36,249 bases of DNA from Chitinophagaceae bacterium (GTDB lineage Bacteria; Bacteroidota; Bacteroidia; Chitinophagales; Chitinophagaceae). The stretch's first letter is position 1. The number at the start of each line of letters is the position of its first letter. The translations under genes were made by a program, and so were the position numbers. Location: NCBI GenBank assembly GCA_947379895.1, contig CANCPA010000022.1, positions 1 through 36,249 of the forward strand, written 5' to 3'. Of this stretch, positions 4,152-36,123 are shown in pieces. A model generated the notes under the pieces. The model saw only the letters and a program-made list of their open reading frames with translations, was not told the DNA's origin and did no database searches.

Positions 4152-4922
4152 TTATCTTTTTAATATAGTTCTATTCAATATTTCTGTTAACTTTTGCTTT
4201 GTGTTTAAAGCAAAGTCACCTTTCATCATCCAATCATAATACTGAGGTTCCTCTTTAAGTACCTGTACAACAGGCTTTCCTTTGTGTTTTCCAAAATTAA
4301 ATATTTCAACACCCTTGTCGTCACGAACAAATCGGCGAGCAAAGTCAATAATATCATCTTCCCCTGTAAACTTTACAATACTCTCCAATGTATCCCCAAT
4401 ATTTGGATATCTTTCTATTTGTGCTTCTAAAACTTCCCAAGTTGCAGTTGCATCGGCTTCTGCGCCGTGTGCACCTTCAAGTGTCTTATTACAATAAAAC
4501 TTATAGGCAGCACTTAGCGTACGTTGCTCCATTTGATGAAAAATCTTCTGTACATCAACCAATTTTTTGCCATCGATTGTAAAATTAATTCCTGCCCTAG
4601 AAAACTCTTCAATTAACAAGGGTAAATCAAATCGATTACTATTATACCCACCCAAATCGCAACCATCAATAAATTGTTTTATTTCATTTGCAGCCTGTTT
4701 AAAAGTAGGTGCATCTTTTACCATTTCATCAGTAATACCATGAATATCACTCGAAGATTTAGGAATTGGAATAGTTGGGTTAATTAATTTTCGTTTGACT
4801 TGTCTTGTACCATCTATTAATACTTTAACAATTCCTATTTCCAAAATGCGGTCATTCGTAATATTTATTCCTGTAGTTTCTAAATCTATAAACGCAAGTG
4901 GACGAGTTAATTTTAATTTCAT
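4152..4922 (-). CDS. DEDD 3'-5' exonuclease with ExoX-like C-terminal domain
   Basis: This is a DnaQ-fold exonuclease of 256 residues. Exo I is FIDLETTGI (residues 12-20, with the metal-binding Asp and Glu). Exo II is GYNSNRFDLPLL (about 92-103). Exo III is HGAEADATATWEVL (about 153-166), with His and Asp giving the DEDDh form. From about residue 190 a second small domain reads FNFGKHKGKPV and ends in YYDWMMKGDF. This is the pattern of the C-terminal domain found on exonuclease X-like and DUF3820-like proteins. Such enzymes trim 3' ends in repair or replication, but the sequence gives no direct link to a polymerase. It is a single minus-strand gene with a long non-coding region upstream (4923-5777). 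Confidence 0.85.
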   Translation of the reverse strand: MKLKLTRPLAFIDLETTGINITNDRILEIGIVKVLIDGTRQVKRKLINPTIPIPKSSSDIHGITDEMVKDAPTFKQAANEIKQFIDGCDLGGYNSNRFDLPLLIEEFSRAGINFTIDGKKLVDVQKIFHQMEQRTLSAAYKFYCNKTLEGAHGAEADATATWEVLEAQIERYPNIGDTLESIVKFTGEDDIIDFARRFVRDDKGVEIFNFGKHKGKPVVQVLKEEPQYYDWMMKGDFALNTKQKLTEILNRTILKR

Positions 4923-5279
4923 GTCAGGTATTAATAAGCTTCAAAATATTATACGAGGGCGAAAGTAAGTATATCACAAAGAATTAATACTTTGTTTTGC
5001 TTAAATTACATTTAAAATTCATAATTGTGAATAACTAACACACATATTTATATTTAGTCACGTCGTAATTACTTCATATCAGAGGTACTTCTCAATTTAG
5101 CTTTTATATATTTTGCTATGAATTAAATTCTCCTAGTGGTTAAAAAAGAAAGTATATTTTGCTTACATCTATGGAATTATATCACACTATGATAGAATAC
5201 TTCGAAAATTAAATAAAACGATGCTTTCATTTAATAAGTGCTCTTATATTCCAATACTTCAGTTATTTATTCTCGAAAT

Positions 5280-5376
5280 CCTAGTACCAGTGTTGGCAGT
5301 CCTAGTACCAGTACTAGCAGTCCTAGTACCGGTGTTGGTTGTCCTAGTACTCGGACTGGCAGTCCTAGTACTTAGG
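5280..5376. repeat. 21-bp tandem array, 4.6 units (cctagtac-type)
   Basis: Units start at 5280, 5301, 5322, 5343 and 5364, an exact 21-base spacing. Each begins cctagtac and the full units share a loose form, with gt or ct near the middle and gcagt at the end in three of four. The last unit is truncated after cctagtacttagg. It is much more GC-rich than its surroundings. Unit 2 contains the inverted pair ctagta/tactag. No coding frame of useful length runs through it: a GTG-started frame would give only 46 codons of SPST-rich heptapeptides. Confidence 0.85.
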
Positions 5377-34200: not shown

Positions 34201-34608
34201 TTATATTGCTTTCATCTTATTCCCTTTTGCATCGTGTGTAACTTCTGCTAAACCGAGTGCTTCCATTAGAGGTGGAATATACATGCCAAAGCGGCCCCGC
34301 AAACCTTTTTTCAGCCCATACCAACCTCCATTTGGGTTACTTTCTGAACGGCCCCATGCTTCAACAGTCCCTTCTTTTACAGTTTTTTGTTCGTCGGCAC
34401 TACCAAGTTCCATCCAATCGCCATGGTCTTTAAGCATTTGATGAAGGTCGGTCAAGCAATCAATGTTATAGTGTAAAACAGTCTTTCCCACAGTACAAAC
34501 TAAGATTTCCTTCTCGCCCTTAGCATCAACATGCATCATGTATTCACTCGACAATGGAGGTGTTTTCAATACCAATGGACTATCCTTTGTCCCTATTTTA
34601 TAGCTCAT
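34201..34608 (-). CDS. DUF6855 family protein
   Basis: This is a 135-residue soluble protein of a widespread conserved family (DUF6855 as I recall it) without known function. The opening MSYKIGTKDSPLVLKTPP, the block GKTVLHYNIDCLTDLHQMLK and the glycine-rich ending GGWYGLKKGLRGRFGMYIPP are strongly conserved features of that family. It is probably a compact alpha-beta protein. There is no signal peptide, membrane segment or catalytic motif I can name. It stands alone, convergent with the exporter operon and divergent from the 21-bp array region. The gene does not look part of the glycan operon. Confidence 0.75.
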   Translation of the reverse strand: MSYKIGTKDSPLVLKTPPLSSEYMMHVDAKGEKEILVCTVGKTVLHYNIDCLTDLHQMLKDHGDWMELGSADEQKTVKEGTVEAWGRSESNPNGGWYGLKKGLRGRFGMYIPPLMEALGLAEVTHDAKGNKMKAI

Positions 34609-35284
34609 TTTCAGTTGTTTTAATTTATAAATTTATAGACTTTATTTGAACTACATAATAAAAACCACAGCTAGTTAAAGCGGTTTTGAAATTATTTATC
34701 TCAAAAAAGCATCAAAAAGCATATATATTCATAAAACGCCTCTCTTTATTTGTCTTTATTTTCGTTAATGTACACTTTTTTGAAACTTTAACGTTGCTAT
34801 GTGCTTTTTATATTTGAACATTTGTCCGTGCTGAAAAAATATATGATTGTCGCTCTCAAAAACCCACCCGTGGCGAACAATAAACTCAAGCACAATTACC
34901 AAGAGATTAACCTTATTTTATCCCTTTTTTATTTTTTCACTTACTGTAAATCATTTATCGCTTACTGTAAATCATTTATTGCCTACTCTCAGTTATTAAG
35001 TGCCTGCTGTAAATCATTTATCGCTTACTATAATTCATTTACCGCCCACTATCAGCTATTAATTGCCTACTATCAATCATTTATCGCTTACTGTAAATCA
35101 TTTACCGCCTACTCTCAGCTATTAATTGCCTACTATCATTCATTTATCGCTTACTGTAAATCATTTACCGCCCACTATCAGTTATTTATTGCCTACTGTA
35201 AATCACTTATTGACGGCTGTAAATGCTTCAAATTCTCGATTTCAAACTTTTTTTATATCAATTCAAACTTAAAATTTTATAATC
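34609..35284. other. Gap with 21-bp array
   Basis: This 676-base gap lies upstream of the 226-residue gene and behind the DUF6855 gene. It contains the tandem array at 34941-35234. The remainder is AT-rich, with no gene I can support. A GTG-initiated frame of 163 codons spanning 34801-35292 is a by-product of the repeat and is discussed under rejected items. Confidence 0.6.
34941..35234. repeat. 21-bp tandem array, 13-14 units
   Basis: Thirteen units with an exact 21-base period run from 34941 to 35213, and a fourteenth, decayed unit reaches 35234. The common form is ytactrtmaatcatttaycgc. Most units match at 15 or more positions. Two unit types alternate: a gtaaatcattt type and a tcagctatt type (units 3, 6, 9 and 12 are of the second type, that is every third unit, so the higher-order period is 63 bases). 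The array ends about 50 bases before the ATG of the next gene. Confidence 0.93.
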
Positions 35285-35965
35285 ATGTCTAATTATTTTG
35301 TCAAACAAAACAATCGTGAATTTAGTGCACAAATTACGGGATTTTCAAAAGAATTACCTCATTATTCAACCGATTTGGGATTTACGGTTGATGATGTCAA
35401 AGAAACAGTTGATGATGCTGCTTTTATGGCTTGGCTAGTAAAATCGGAGATTGCAGAGGAAAAAAACAAATTGGCGTGGACATCCTTTGTAAATGCTAGC
35501 AGAAATAACTCGAATGGAGCATTAGTATTAGTTCCCCCTGTAGCAATTGTGCTTGATGTAATGCCAACATTGGTTTTGCCGGGTATCGATAAACGTTTTT
35601 CACAAAAAGCGGCTAAGGCAAAGGCAAACGGCTGTTCGGAGGCGAATCAAAAGATATTGGGAATATTTACCTCCCCCGATACCACTCAAGTAACTGAACC
35701 TGCTTTAAAGTTAAAGGAAGAGGCAGGGTACCCTGAAATTAGTTTTCAAAAACATGGATACGTGACCATCAATCTGTATCGAAATACGGGTAAGGGTTAT
35801 GATAGTCAACCATATAAAACATTATCAAAAAGTCCATTTTTAGATACCGATATACCGGCAACTGGAGTTACAGCTCAATATAAATATAAGGCTATCTATA
35901 CTGTAAATGATGTGGAATCGGGAAGTTACAGCGCAGAAGTAAGCATTAATGTGGTTGGAAAATAG
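35285..35965 (+). CDS. Protein of unknown function with helical N-part and beta-rich C-part
   Basis: I do not recognise this 226-residue protein with certainty. There is no signal peptide or membrane helix. The first 80 residues look helical and charged (DDVKETVDDAAFMAWLVKSEIAEEKNKLAWTSF broken into shorter helices), followed by a proline/valine segment (VPPVAIVLDVMPTLVLPGIDKRF) and a lysine/alanine helix. The last 85 residues look like a fibronectin- or Ig-type beta domain (YPEISFQKHGYVTINLY, YKYKAIYTVNDVESGSY). This general layout occurs in Bacteroidota proteins of unknown role. ATG at 35285. The 21-bp array lies upstream and a good terminator follows at 35990. Confidence 0.75.
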   Translation: MSNYFVKQNNREFSAQITGFSKELPHYSTDLGFTVDDVKETVDDAAFMAWLVKSEIAEEKNKLAWTSFVNASRNNSNGALVLVPPVAIVLDVMPTLVLPGIDKRFSQKAAKAKANGCSEANQKILGIFTSPDTTQVTEPALKLKEEAGYPEISFQKHGYVTINLYRNTGKGYDSQPYKTLSKSPFLDTDIPATGVTAQYKYKAIYTVNDVESGSYSAEVSINVVGK

Positions 35966-35989
35966 TGGTTAGTTAAATCTGATTGAATC

Positions 35990-36025
35990 AAAAAGCCCTA
36001 GAAGTAAATCCTTCGAGGGCTTTTT
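35990..36025 (+). terminator. Rho-independent terminator after the 226-residue gene
   Basis: A 15-bp stem with one mismatch (left arm 35990-36004, right arm 36011-36025; agccct facing agggct) and a six-base loop ends in ttttt. It starts 24 bases after the stop codon. Confidence 0.85.
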
Positions 36026-36123
36026 AATGTCCCGAATAAAGGGTGCATAAAAGTTTTTCGCTTAAAATATTAACCCTAAATAAATTCGATTTATAAAAGC
36101 TAAAAGTTCAAACCGATTAAAAT

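Follow-up and report, generated by a model that had tools for sequence, protein, structure and literature searches.

Why should an intergenic stretch of bacterial DNA keep an exact 21-bp step over thirteen repeats, when the bases within these repeats vary? The question is raised by a tandem array (34942-35224, not assigned to a strand) in the window, i.e., the whole stretch of 36,249 nucleotides analyzed here, which comes from a Chitinophagaceae bacterium (assembly GCA_947379895.1, contig CANCPA010000022.1) whose genome, hereafter G000, consists of 401 contigs and 5.3 Mb. The array is flanked by a divergent DUF6855 gene (34201-34608, minus strand) and by a plus-strand gene starting at 35285.

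The array in the window and the gene behind it

The array was delineated by Tandem Repeats Finder (TRF), autocorrelation against shuffled sequences, and unit slicing, and comprises 13 full units and a partial fourteenth. At a period of 21 bp, TRF returns 34942-35224, with 13.5 copies, 70% matches, 0% indels, and a score of 223; at a period of 63 bp, the stronger of the two, it returns 34942-35210, with 4.3 copies, 87% matches, 0% indels, and a score of 405. The autocorrelation of 34931-35230 is 0.70 at lag 21 and 0.83 at lag 63, whereas 1000 mononucleotide shuffles never exceeded 0.47 at any lag between 1 and 149. Slicing yields 13 AT-rich units, for which 12 out of 12 spacings equal 21 bp, and which carry 47 substitutions with respect to their consensus, TACTGTAAATCATTTATCGCC. 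The exact period and the 63-bp super-period described in the initial annotation are therefore borne out, and so is its remark that every third unit is of another type, since units 3, 6, 9, and 12 (starting at 34984, 35047, 35110, and 35173) have TCAGYTATT replacing GTAAATCATTT. It had placed 13 to 14 units at 34941-35234: the 13 full units stand, while 34942 is the first position of the array proper, and only half of the fourteenth unit (35215-35235) can be recognized.

A sigma-70 scan returned 12 promoter-like sites, for 6.2 expected, seven of them on the minus strand, in the array or at its edge. These seven TTTACA-17-GATAGT-like matches recur with the unit along the minus strand of 34942-35224 and are directed at the DUF6855 gene; such promoter-like sites are not taken as evidence.

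The gene downstream of the array (35285-35965, plus strand) encodes a protein of 226 aa with predicted N-terminal helices and a C-terminal fibronectin type III (FnIII)-like domain. It was first described as uncharacterized, and indeed Pfam returns no match for this protein. A hairpin followed by T, seen in the sequence at 35990-36025 (plus strand), is a possible terminator, so the gene would be a single-gene unit; a scan of 34600-36100 with a loop limit of 8 bases did not flag this hairpin. For 14 members of the protein family, Pfam and NCBIfam gave no convincing match (three NCBIfam families and one Pfam family each match one member, with E from 0.011 to 0.076), and the Pfam FnIII profiles gave none up to E 0.1; a family can be too diverged for this kind of profile. 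Modeled with AlphaFold2, both the window protein (mean pLDDT 85.5, pTM 0.52) and its relative L117 (mean pLDDT 88.9, pTM 0.47) have helices at the N-terminus and a beta domain at the C-terminus. Residues ~133-226 of the window model match the FnIII fold (best Z 9.9, rmsd 2.3, 84 residues aligned), with a best Foldseek E of 1.1e-3; the fold comparison covers residues 133-226 well and says nothing on the fold of the helical part. Among the families listed by this comparison, which barely covers the helices, no DNA-binding fold was recognized for the family protein. In a viral structure library, FnIII-containing phage proteins were matched, tail proteins included. A tblastn search with the member L046 gave no match among 50,697 phage records and 72,556 plasmid records, and no relative was found in viral contigs searched with the window protein.

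The family is multicopy in the genus, where 11 of 13 genomes have between 1 and 12 matches (a number of fragments included) and the other two (G005 and G008) have none. Beyond the genus, it was detected in 5 of 296 genomes of a phylum sample (the window's own included), in 12 of 245 genomes from the class of genome G310, and in 2 of 282 genomes from the phylum of a Myxococcales metagenome-assembled genome (MAG), which carries a relative on contig CALLYL010000541.1. A Chitinophagaceae MAG contig, JAIXOJ010000215.1, holds a relative identical to the query from genome G011. The family is, overall, scattered over the Bacteroidota and two Myxococcota MAGs, and the Myxococcota contigs could be misbinned.

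Arrays ahead of the gene family and elsewhere

The upstream regions of 86 family loci were examined: the window gene, 47 of the 63 other places found in the genus (hand-picked, mainly for available upstream DNA, before that DNA was seen), all 13 places of the phylum sample outside G000, 22 of 33 additional places from the class of G310 (no locus was returned for the other 11), and three from the Myxococcota. Once L071 had been dropped (5 bp upstream) and the partial genes L059, L141, and L145 retained, 85 loci remained, each with at least 150 bp upstream, of which up to 900 bp were scanned. A locus was scored positive if TRF gave a score of at least 60 for a period close to a multiple of 21. 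An upstream array was found in 61 of these 85 loci (54 at a score of 100), namely 35/47 for the genus plus G032, 6/13 for the phylum sample, 17/22 for the class of G310, and 3/3 for the Myxococcota. By comparison, TRF rows with other periods (at least 9) reach a score of 60 in 10/85 loci. When any period was allowed, the best one was a multiple of 21 in 47 of the 54 loci scoring at least 100, i.e., 21 (17 loci), 42 (14), 63 (11), 84 (3), 105 (1), or 126 bp (1), and the remaining best periods were 60 (2), 41, 43, 62, 91, and 128 bp (1 each). The arrays have a median span of 184 bp, and the median distance from their end to the start codon is 132 bp.

No array was scored at 60 for the other 24 loci, including four of the nine in G000 and two near-identical family genes of G322. 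At least one of these negatives, L098, shows a diverged 21-bp periodicity by eye.

Several individual loci deserve mention. The upstream region of L029 (G004:C2), a family gene without array, apparently holds a transposase-like gene on the same strand. The related family genes L044 (G004:C65) and L057 (G003:C205) have arrays with a period of 20, 40, or 60 bp instead of 21. A GGA-nn-TCC-like palindromic core recurs in the arrays of L024, L027, L028, L032, and L117, from Bacteroidota and a Myxococcales MAG.

Several controls bear on this association. Arrays are rare in the downstream flanks of family genes (3/38). A fixed 900 bp upstream of 231 open reading frames (ORFs) from sampled G000 contigs gave 19 arrays at a score of 60 and 11 at a score of 100. 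In a comparison stratified over eight genomes, which leaves out the 14-aa fragment L145, family genes have an array ahead of them in 37 of 46 cases, and other ORFs preceded by 250 bp or more of intergenic DNA in 38 of 245 (Mantel-Haenszel odds ratio of 23, p = 3e-18; Fisher p ≤0.035 in each of the eight genomes); this comparison tilts slightly to the family, whose upstream regions were not cut at the neighboring gene while the others were, and its related loci are not independent. For G000 alone, the figures are 5/9 for the family and 15/101 for the others (3/9 and 10/101 at a score of 100). Such arrays are enriched ahead of family genes in two Myxococcota MAGs as well as in several lineages of Bacteroidota.

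The arrays are not restricted to family genes. The window itself holds a second, unrelated 21-bp array (TCCTAGTACCAGTACTGGCAG, 5279-5371, no strand assigned; 4.4 copies by TRF) of palindromic look, which is not beside a family gene and lies upstream of an RNase_T/ExoX-like exonuclease gene on the minus strand (4152-4922), at 357 bp from the start of that gene. Counting only arrays that are not within an open frame of 200 codons, 400 kb of G000 contain 14, several of them ahead of unrelated genes such as those for a tRNA synthetase, an M23 peptidase, a dUTPase, an isocitrate dehydrogenase, and a pfkB-like protein. Samples from genomes with the family total 38 arrays in ~1.18 Mb (arrays/kb: G000 14/400, G011 5/82, G004 8/140, G310 2/104, G215 2/70, G322 1/48, G443 0/56, G012 0/80, G006 5/100, G404 1/47, and G474 0/57), against a single array, of 22 bp, in ~0.58 Mb from genomes without it (G014, G018, G016, and G349 0/80 each, G353 1/40, G183 0/29, G235 0/78, G005 0/49, and G008 0/61), a contrast which rests on few independent lineages and includes three positive genomes with no array in their sample. 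The location of the arrays is partly conserved across the genus. For example, upstream of the dUTPase gene, 5 of the 12 genus loci that could be read carry an array (score of 50); these five comprise four different units, and G005, G008, and G012 have no array there. Upstream of the pfkB-like gene, an array is found in 1 of 14 readable genus loci, that of G000 alone. Arrays with a period of 7 or 14 bp (AGTTATG type, e.g., L003 8556-8586) are also common in G000 and are of a different kind.

Turnover of the units, and a shared leader

The units are replaced while the period stays. In the arrays at family loci, the spacing between successive units is 21 for 432 of 441 pairs. Over 52 arrays of at least four units, 1742 substitutions were counted with respect to each array's own consensus, for 9 off-phase junctions out of 426, a ratio that overstates the constraint, because the unit finder penalizes shifts and TRF favors regular arrays. 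With this leaning of the method in mind, the suggestion that constraint acts on the period and not on the sequence finds support beyond the window. Clustering the consensus units at 15/21 matches gave 53 clusters from 61 arrays. Defining a shared unit as at least 16/21 matches (54 of the 61 arrays compared; shuffled mean 9.8), units are shared by 3 of 10 pairs above 70% protein identity, all three at 79-83%, by none of 49 pairs at 50-70%, by 2 of 42 pairs at 40-50% (L024 and L028, each with L032, 48%), and by none of 1330 pairs below 40%. Arrays of sister species vary in unit as well as in number. The window protein is 83% identical to its relative in genome G009, and the units of the two arrays match at chance level (10/21). 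Units at chance level ahead of related proteins are hard to reconcile with a protein that recognizes the unit by its letters; this difficulty does not arise for a reader of spacing.

A leader upstream of the array (34785-34900, plus strand) is also found upstream of several relatives of the downstream gene. It contains TATATTTG, which we take to be a possible Bacteroidota -7 promoter box. Matches were obtained in G009, G001, and G006, at 73-75% identity, and on contig C18 of G000. The leader is recognizable ahead of the gene's relatives in other species, where the arrays look unrelated. Eight aligned leaders have a mean column identity of 59%, and their consensus stem is weak (7 pairs, one of them changed on both sides).

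The leader and array together have two copies in G000. The second one, the only further related array in this genome, lies on C18, ahead of the pfkB-like gene, and shares 76% identity with the window across ~390 bp of leader and array. Direct repeats of ~42 bp, at 814-855 and 1394-1435 of this locus (L231), flank its leader and array and may hint at the route of its arrival; no homologous empty site was found in seven orthologous loci. Another side observation comes from G009, where a short run of units like those of the window (TAAATCATTTATCGCC), at ~1157-1259 of L025 (G009:C37), is the source of two matches in the leader and array search and is possibly a displaced relative of the window array.

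What the constant period may reflect

Our leading explanation, held tentatively, is that the arrays are evenly phased protein docking sites, read more by their spacing than by their sequence, and enlarged by slippage or unequal exchange. The array is a constant-period, variable-sequence satellite ahead of a gene for a small helical and FnIII-like protein. As equal positions recur every two helical turns, proteins could line up in register along the same side of the helix and would read the shape or spacing of the DNA more than its letters. The best candidate binder would be the family protein itself, oligomerizing through its helical part, which may bind both to the array preceding its gene, as autoregulation, and to arrays elsewhere in the genome. 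We infer that slippage, or unequal exchange, involving one to three units would enlarge and homogenize the arrays, yielding super-periods of 42 and 63 bp; the units would change fast, and selection would remove off-phase changes. Growth by copying multi-unit blocks, initially proposed for the window array, is supported by the super-periods of 42, 63, 84, and 126 bp in other arrays.

Several results weaken the docking explanation. No DNA-binding fold was recognized, and FnIII domains usually bind proteins or sugars. In addition, 24 of the 85 family loci have no array at a score of 60, many arrays are located away from family genes, and G443, G474, and G012 have family genes with no further array in 56, 57, and 80 kb, respectively. 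The Myxococcota MAG contigs could be misbinned, and related loci are not independent. Lastly, arrays of 20-21 nt also occur in Bacillus, Cyanobacteria, and Actinobacteria, according to the accessible part of PMC8161180.

The main rival, which we consider somewhat unlikely, is that the arrays are a mutational by-product of replication, repair, or recombination, which in these lineages would tend to duplicate DNA by about two helical turns at a time. Arrays would arise in any tolerant intergenic space, and family genes would either have a long tolerant upstream region or gain arrays readily. The arrays ahead of unrelated genes (tRNA synthetase, M23 peptidase, dUTPase, isocitrate dehydrogenase, pfkB-like) and the free turnover of units fit this explanation, as does the pfkB array, the presence of which in a single readable genus locus out of 14 implies that arrays come and go. 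Nevertheless, the family exceeds other genes with long upstream regions in each of the eight genomes, and the downstream flanks are poor in arrays. A shared location with replaced units is likewise unexpected for a purely random process, although a hot spot could produce it.

An RNA function is unlikely, though it has several observations on its side. The array would be transcribed in the 5' leader of the gene, or separately, and repeated stems or protein sites would be regulatory. On the gene strand, the folding energy is better than that of column-permuted arrays in 25 of 46 arrays (mean z -1.69), dyad symmetry reaches p <0.05 in 12 of 52 consensus units, and every counted array lies upstream, ending at the median of 132 bp ahead of the start codon mentioned above. 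Satellite transcripts have also been reported in Bacillus coagulans (PMC8625621, in excerpt). Conversely, the opposite strand folds equally well (mean z -1.79, 26/46), and since both strands fold alike, there is no sign of gene-strand G-U pairing. The window array itself has no folding excess (z 0.62), Rfam returns nothing up to E 1 for 34600-35300, the promoter box is not significantly enriched ahead of the arrays (13 seen, 9.6 expected), and RNA helices do not account for the 21-bp step. The folding data fit a tendency toward symmetry, alike on both strands, in about one half of the arrays; the window array is not among them. Two narrower proposals were rejected: hairpin arrays acting as RNA, as the excess in 25/46 is strand-symmetric and absent from the window array, and dyad symmetry as the defining feature, which with 12/52 consensus units is enriched and not universal.

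Intrinsic curvature from phased A-tracts, suggested by the two-turn period and the AT-rich unit of the window, is very improbable. The prediction called for at the outset was run with a wedge model and gave no excess over column-permuted arrays (z -0.82 for the window; mean z -0.04 for 41 arrays, two of them above 1.645), with an AA/TT share at 10.5 bp of 0.105, for 0.1 expected. That the array codes for a repeat peptide of seven residues per unit is scarcely credible and was rejected: a 163-aa frame is open across the window array, but it is uninformative because open frames are as common on the opposite strand (32/41 arrays, and 30/41 on the gene strand), a codon-position pattern appears in 0/41 arrays, and the arrays of L044 and L057 have a 20-bp period. 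Codon-level constraint had been named as what would overturn the non-coding interpretation, and none was found in these 41 arrays with their strand-symmetric frames.

To return to docking, the arrays and the family may form one system, in which the protein reads the spacing of the repeats (two helical turns) and not their letters, and coats the array at its own gene as well as other arrays; this stronger proposal is conceivable, if doubtful. If true, the repeats would be selected for phase alone, their sequence being free to drift and be replaced, and such a sequence-independent reading of repeat spacing would be unusual among DNA-binding proteins.

Comparison with known systems

Plasmid iterons are direct repeats spaced by about two helical turns, to which the product of an adjacent gene binds in register. 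The repeat step and the neighboring gene are alike, whereas the present arrays are chromosomal, with sequence-diverse units, and the neighboring protein has no replication initiator match in Pfam. REP elements with their RAYT, and CRISPR arrays, are genome-wide repeats found alongside a protein family in the same genomes. Unlike these, the present arrays have no conserved repeat and no spacers, and Pfam matches the neighboring protein to neither a transposase nor a nuclease.

The nearest Bacteroidota element found is BrickBuilt, a minisatellite MITE of Porphyromonas gingivalis with a 23-nt unit, a single unit family, and 19 copies in one genome (PMC4596501, in excerpt). Both are intergenic tandem arrays with a leader segment. 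Nevertheless, BrickBuilt, as described in the available portion of PMC4596501, has a leader and a tail with inverted-repeat ends, while here the unit is 21 bp long and nearly every array has its own. Its 19 copies (same excerpt) also contrast with the two copies of the window leader in G000; neither the 23-nt unit nor the many copies of one element are found here. A long-read survey of lake bacteria describes frequent non-coding deletions at intergenic tandem repeats (PMC9426551, in part), in line with copy-number change of the arrays.

The closest likeness is with the bacterial tandem repeats of constant size (20-21 or 52 nt) and variable sequence described by Subirana and Messeguer in Bacillus and other bacteria (PMC8161180, PMC6749651, PMC8625621, all in excerpt). 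Those of 20-21 nt are reported in Bacillus, Cyanobacteria, and Actinobacteria, and the authors relate this size to two helical turns and suggest either small RNAs or a protein polymerizing on DNA (PMC8161180, accessible text). According to the same accessible text, these satellites resemble the present arrays in repeat size, in having several unrelated units per genome, in being mostly non-coding, in being present in some species and absent in relatives with a variable copy number, and in the proposal of a protein that needs a fixed size. The class is also characterized by a short sequence common to most arrays of one species. The window array has units of 20-21 nt repeated at least four times (period of 21, 13.5 copies), its genome contains further repeats of this size with different sequences (400-kb sample of G000 and window), and no amino-acid-repeat coding was found in 41 arrays. 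There are also differences: the accessible text of PMC8161180 names no partner gene, whereas the arrays described here are associated with a gene family from Bacteroidota and Myxococcota MAGs, stand mainly at one position relative to its genes, and have super-periods of 42 and 63 bp. Our literature search found no protein family named in connection with 21-bp arrays; a 2020 J. Bacteriol. paper outside its reach could contain one.

Constant-size satellites have so far had neither a known partner nor a known function, and their authors asked whether a protein needs the fixed spacing (PMC8161180, accessible text); if the arrays and the family do form one system, this family would be the missing protein. 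The link between family and arrays extends over large phylogenetic distances, and gives a known but unexplained repeat class a candidate partner protein. The window array belongs to a constant-size, variable-sequence class of 20-21 nt that is already in print, and the candidate for its partner protein is new.
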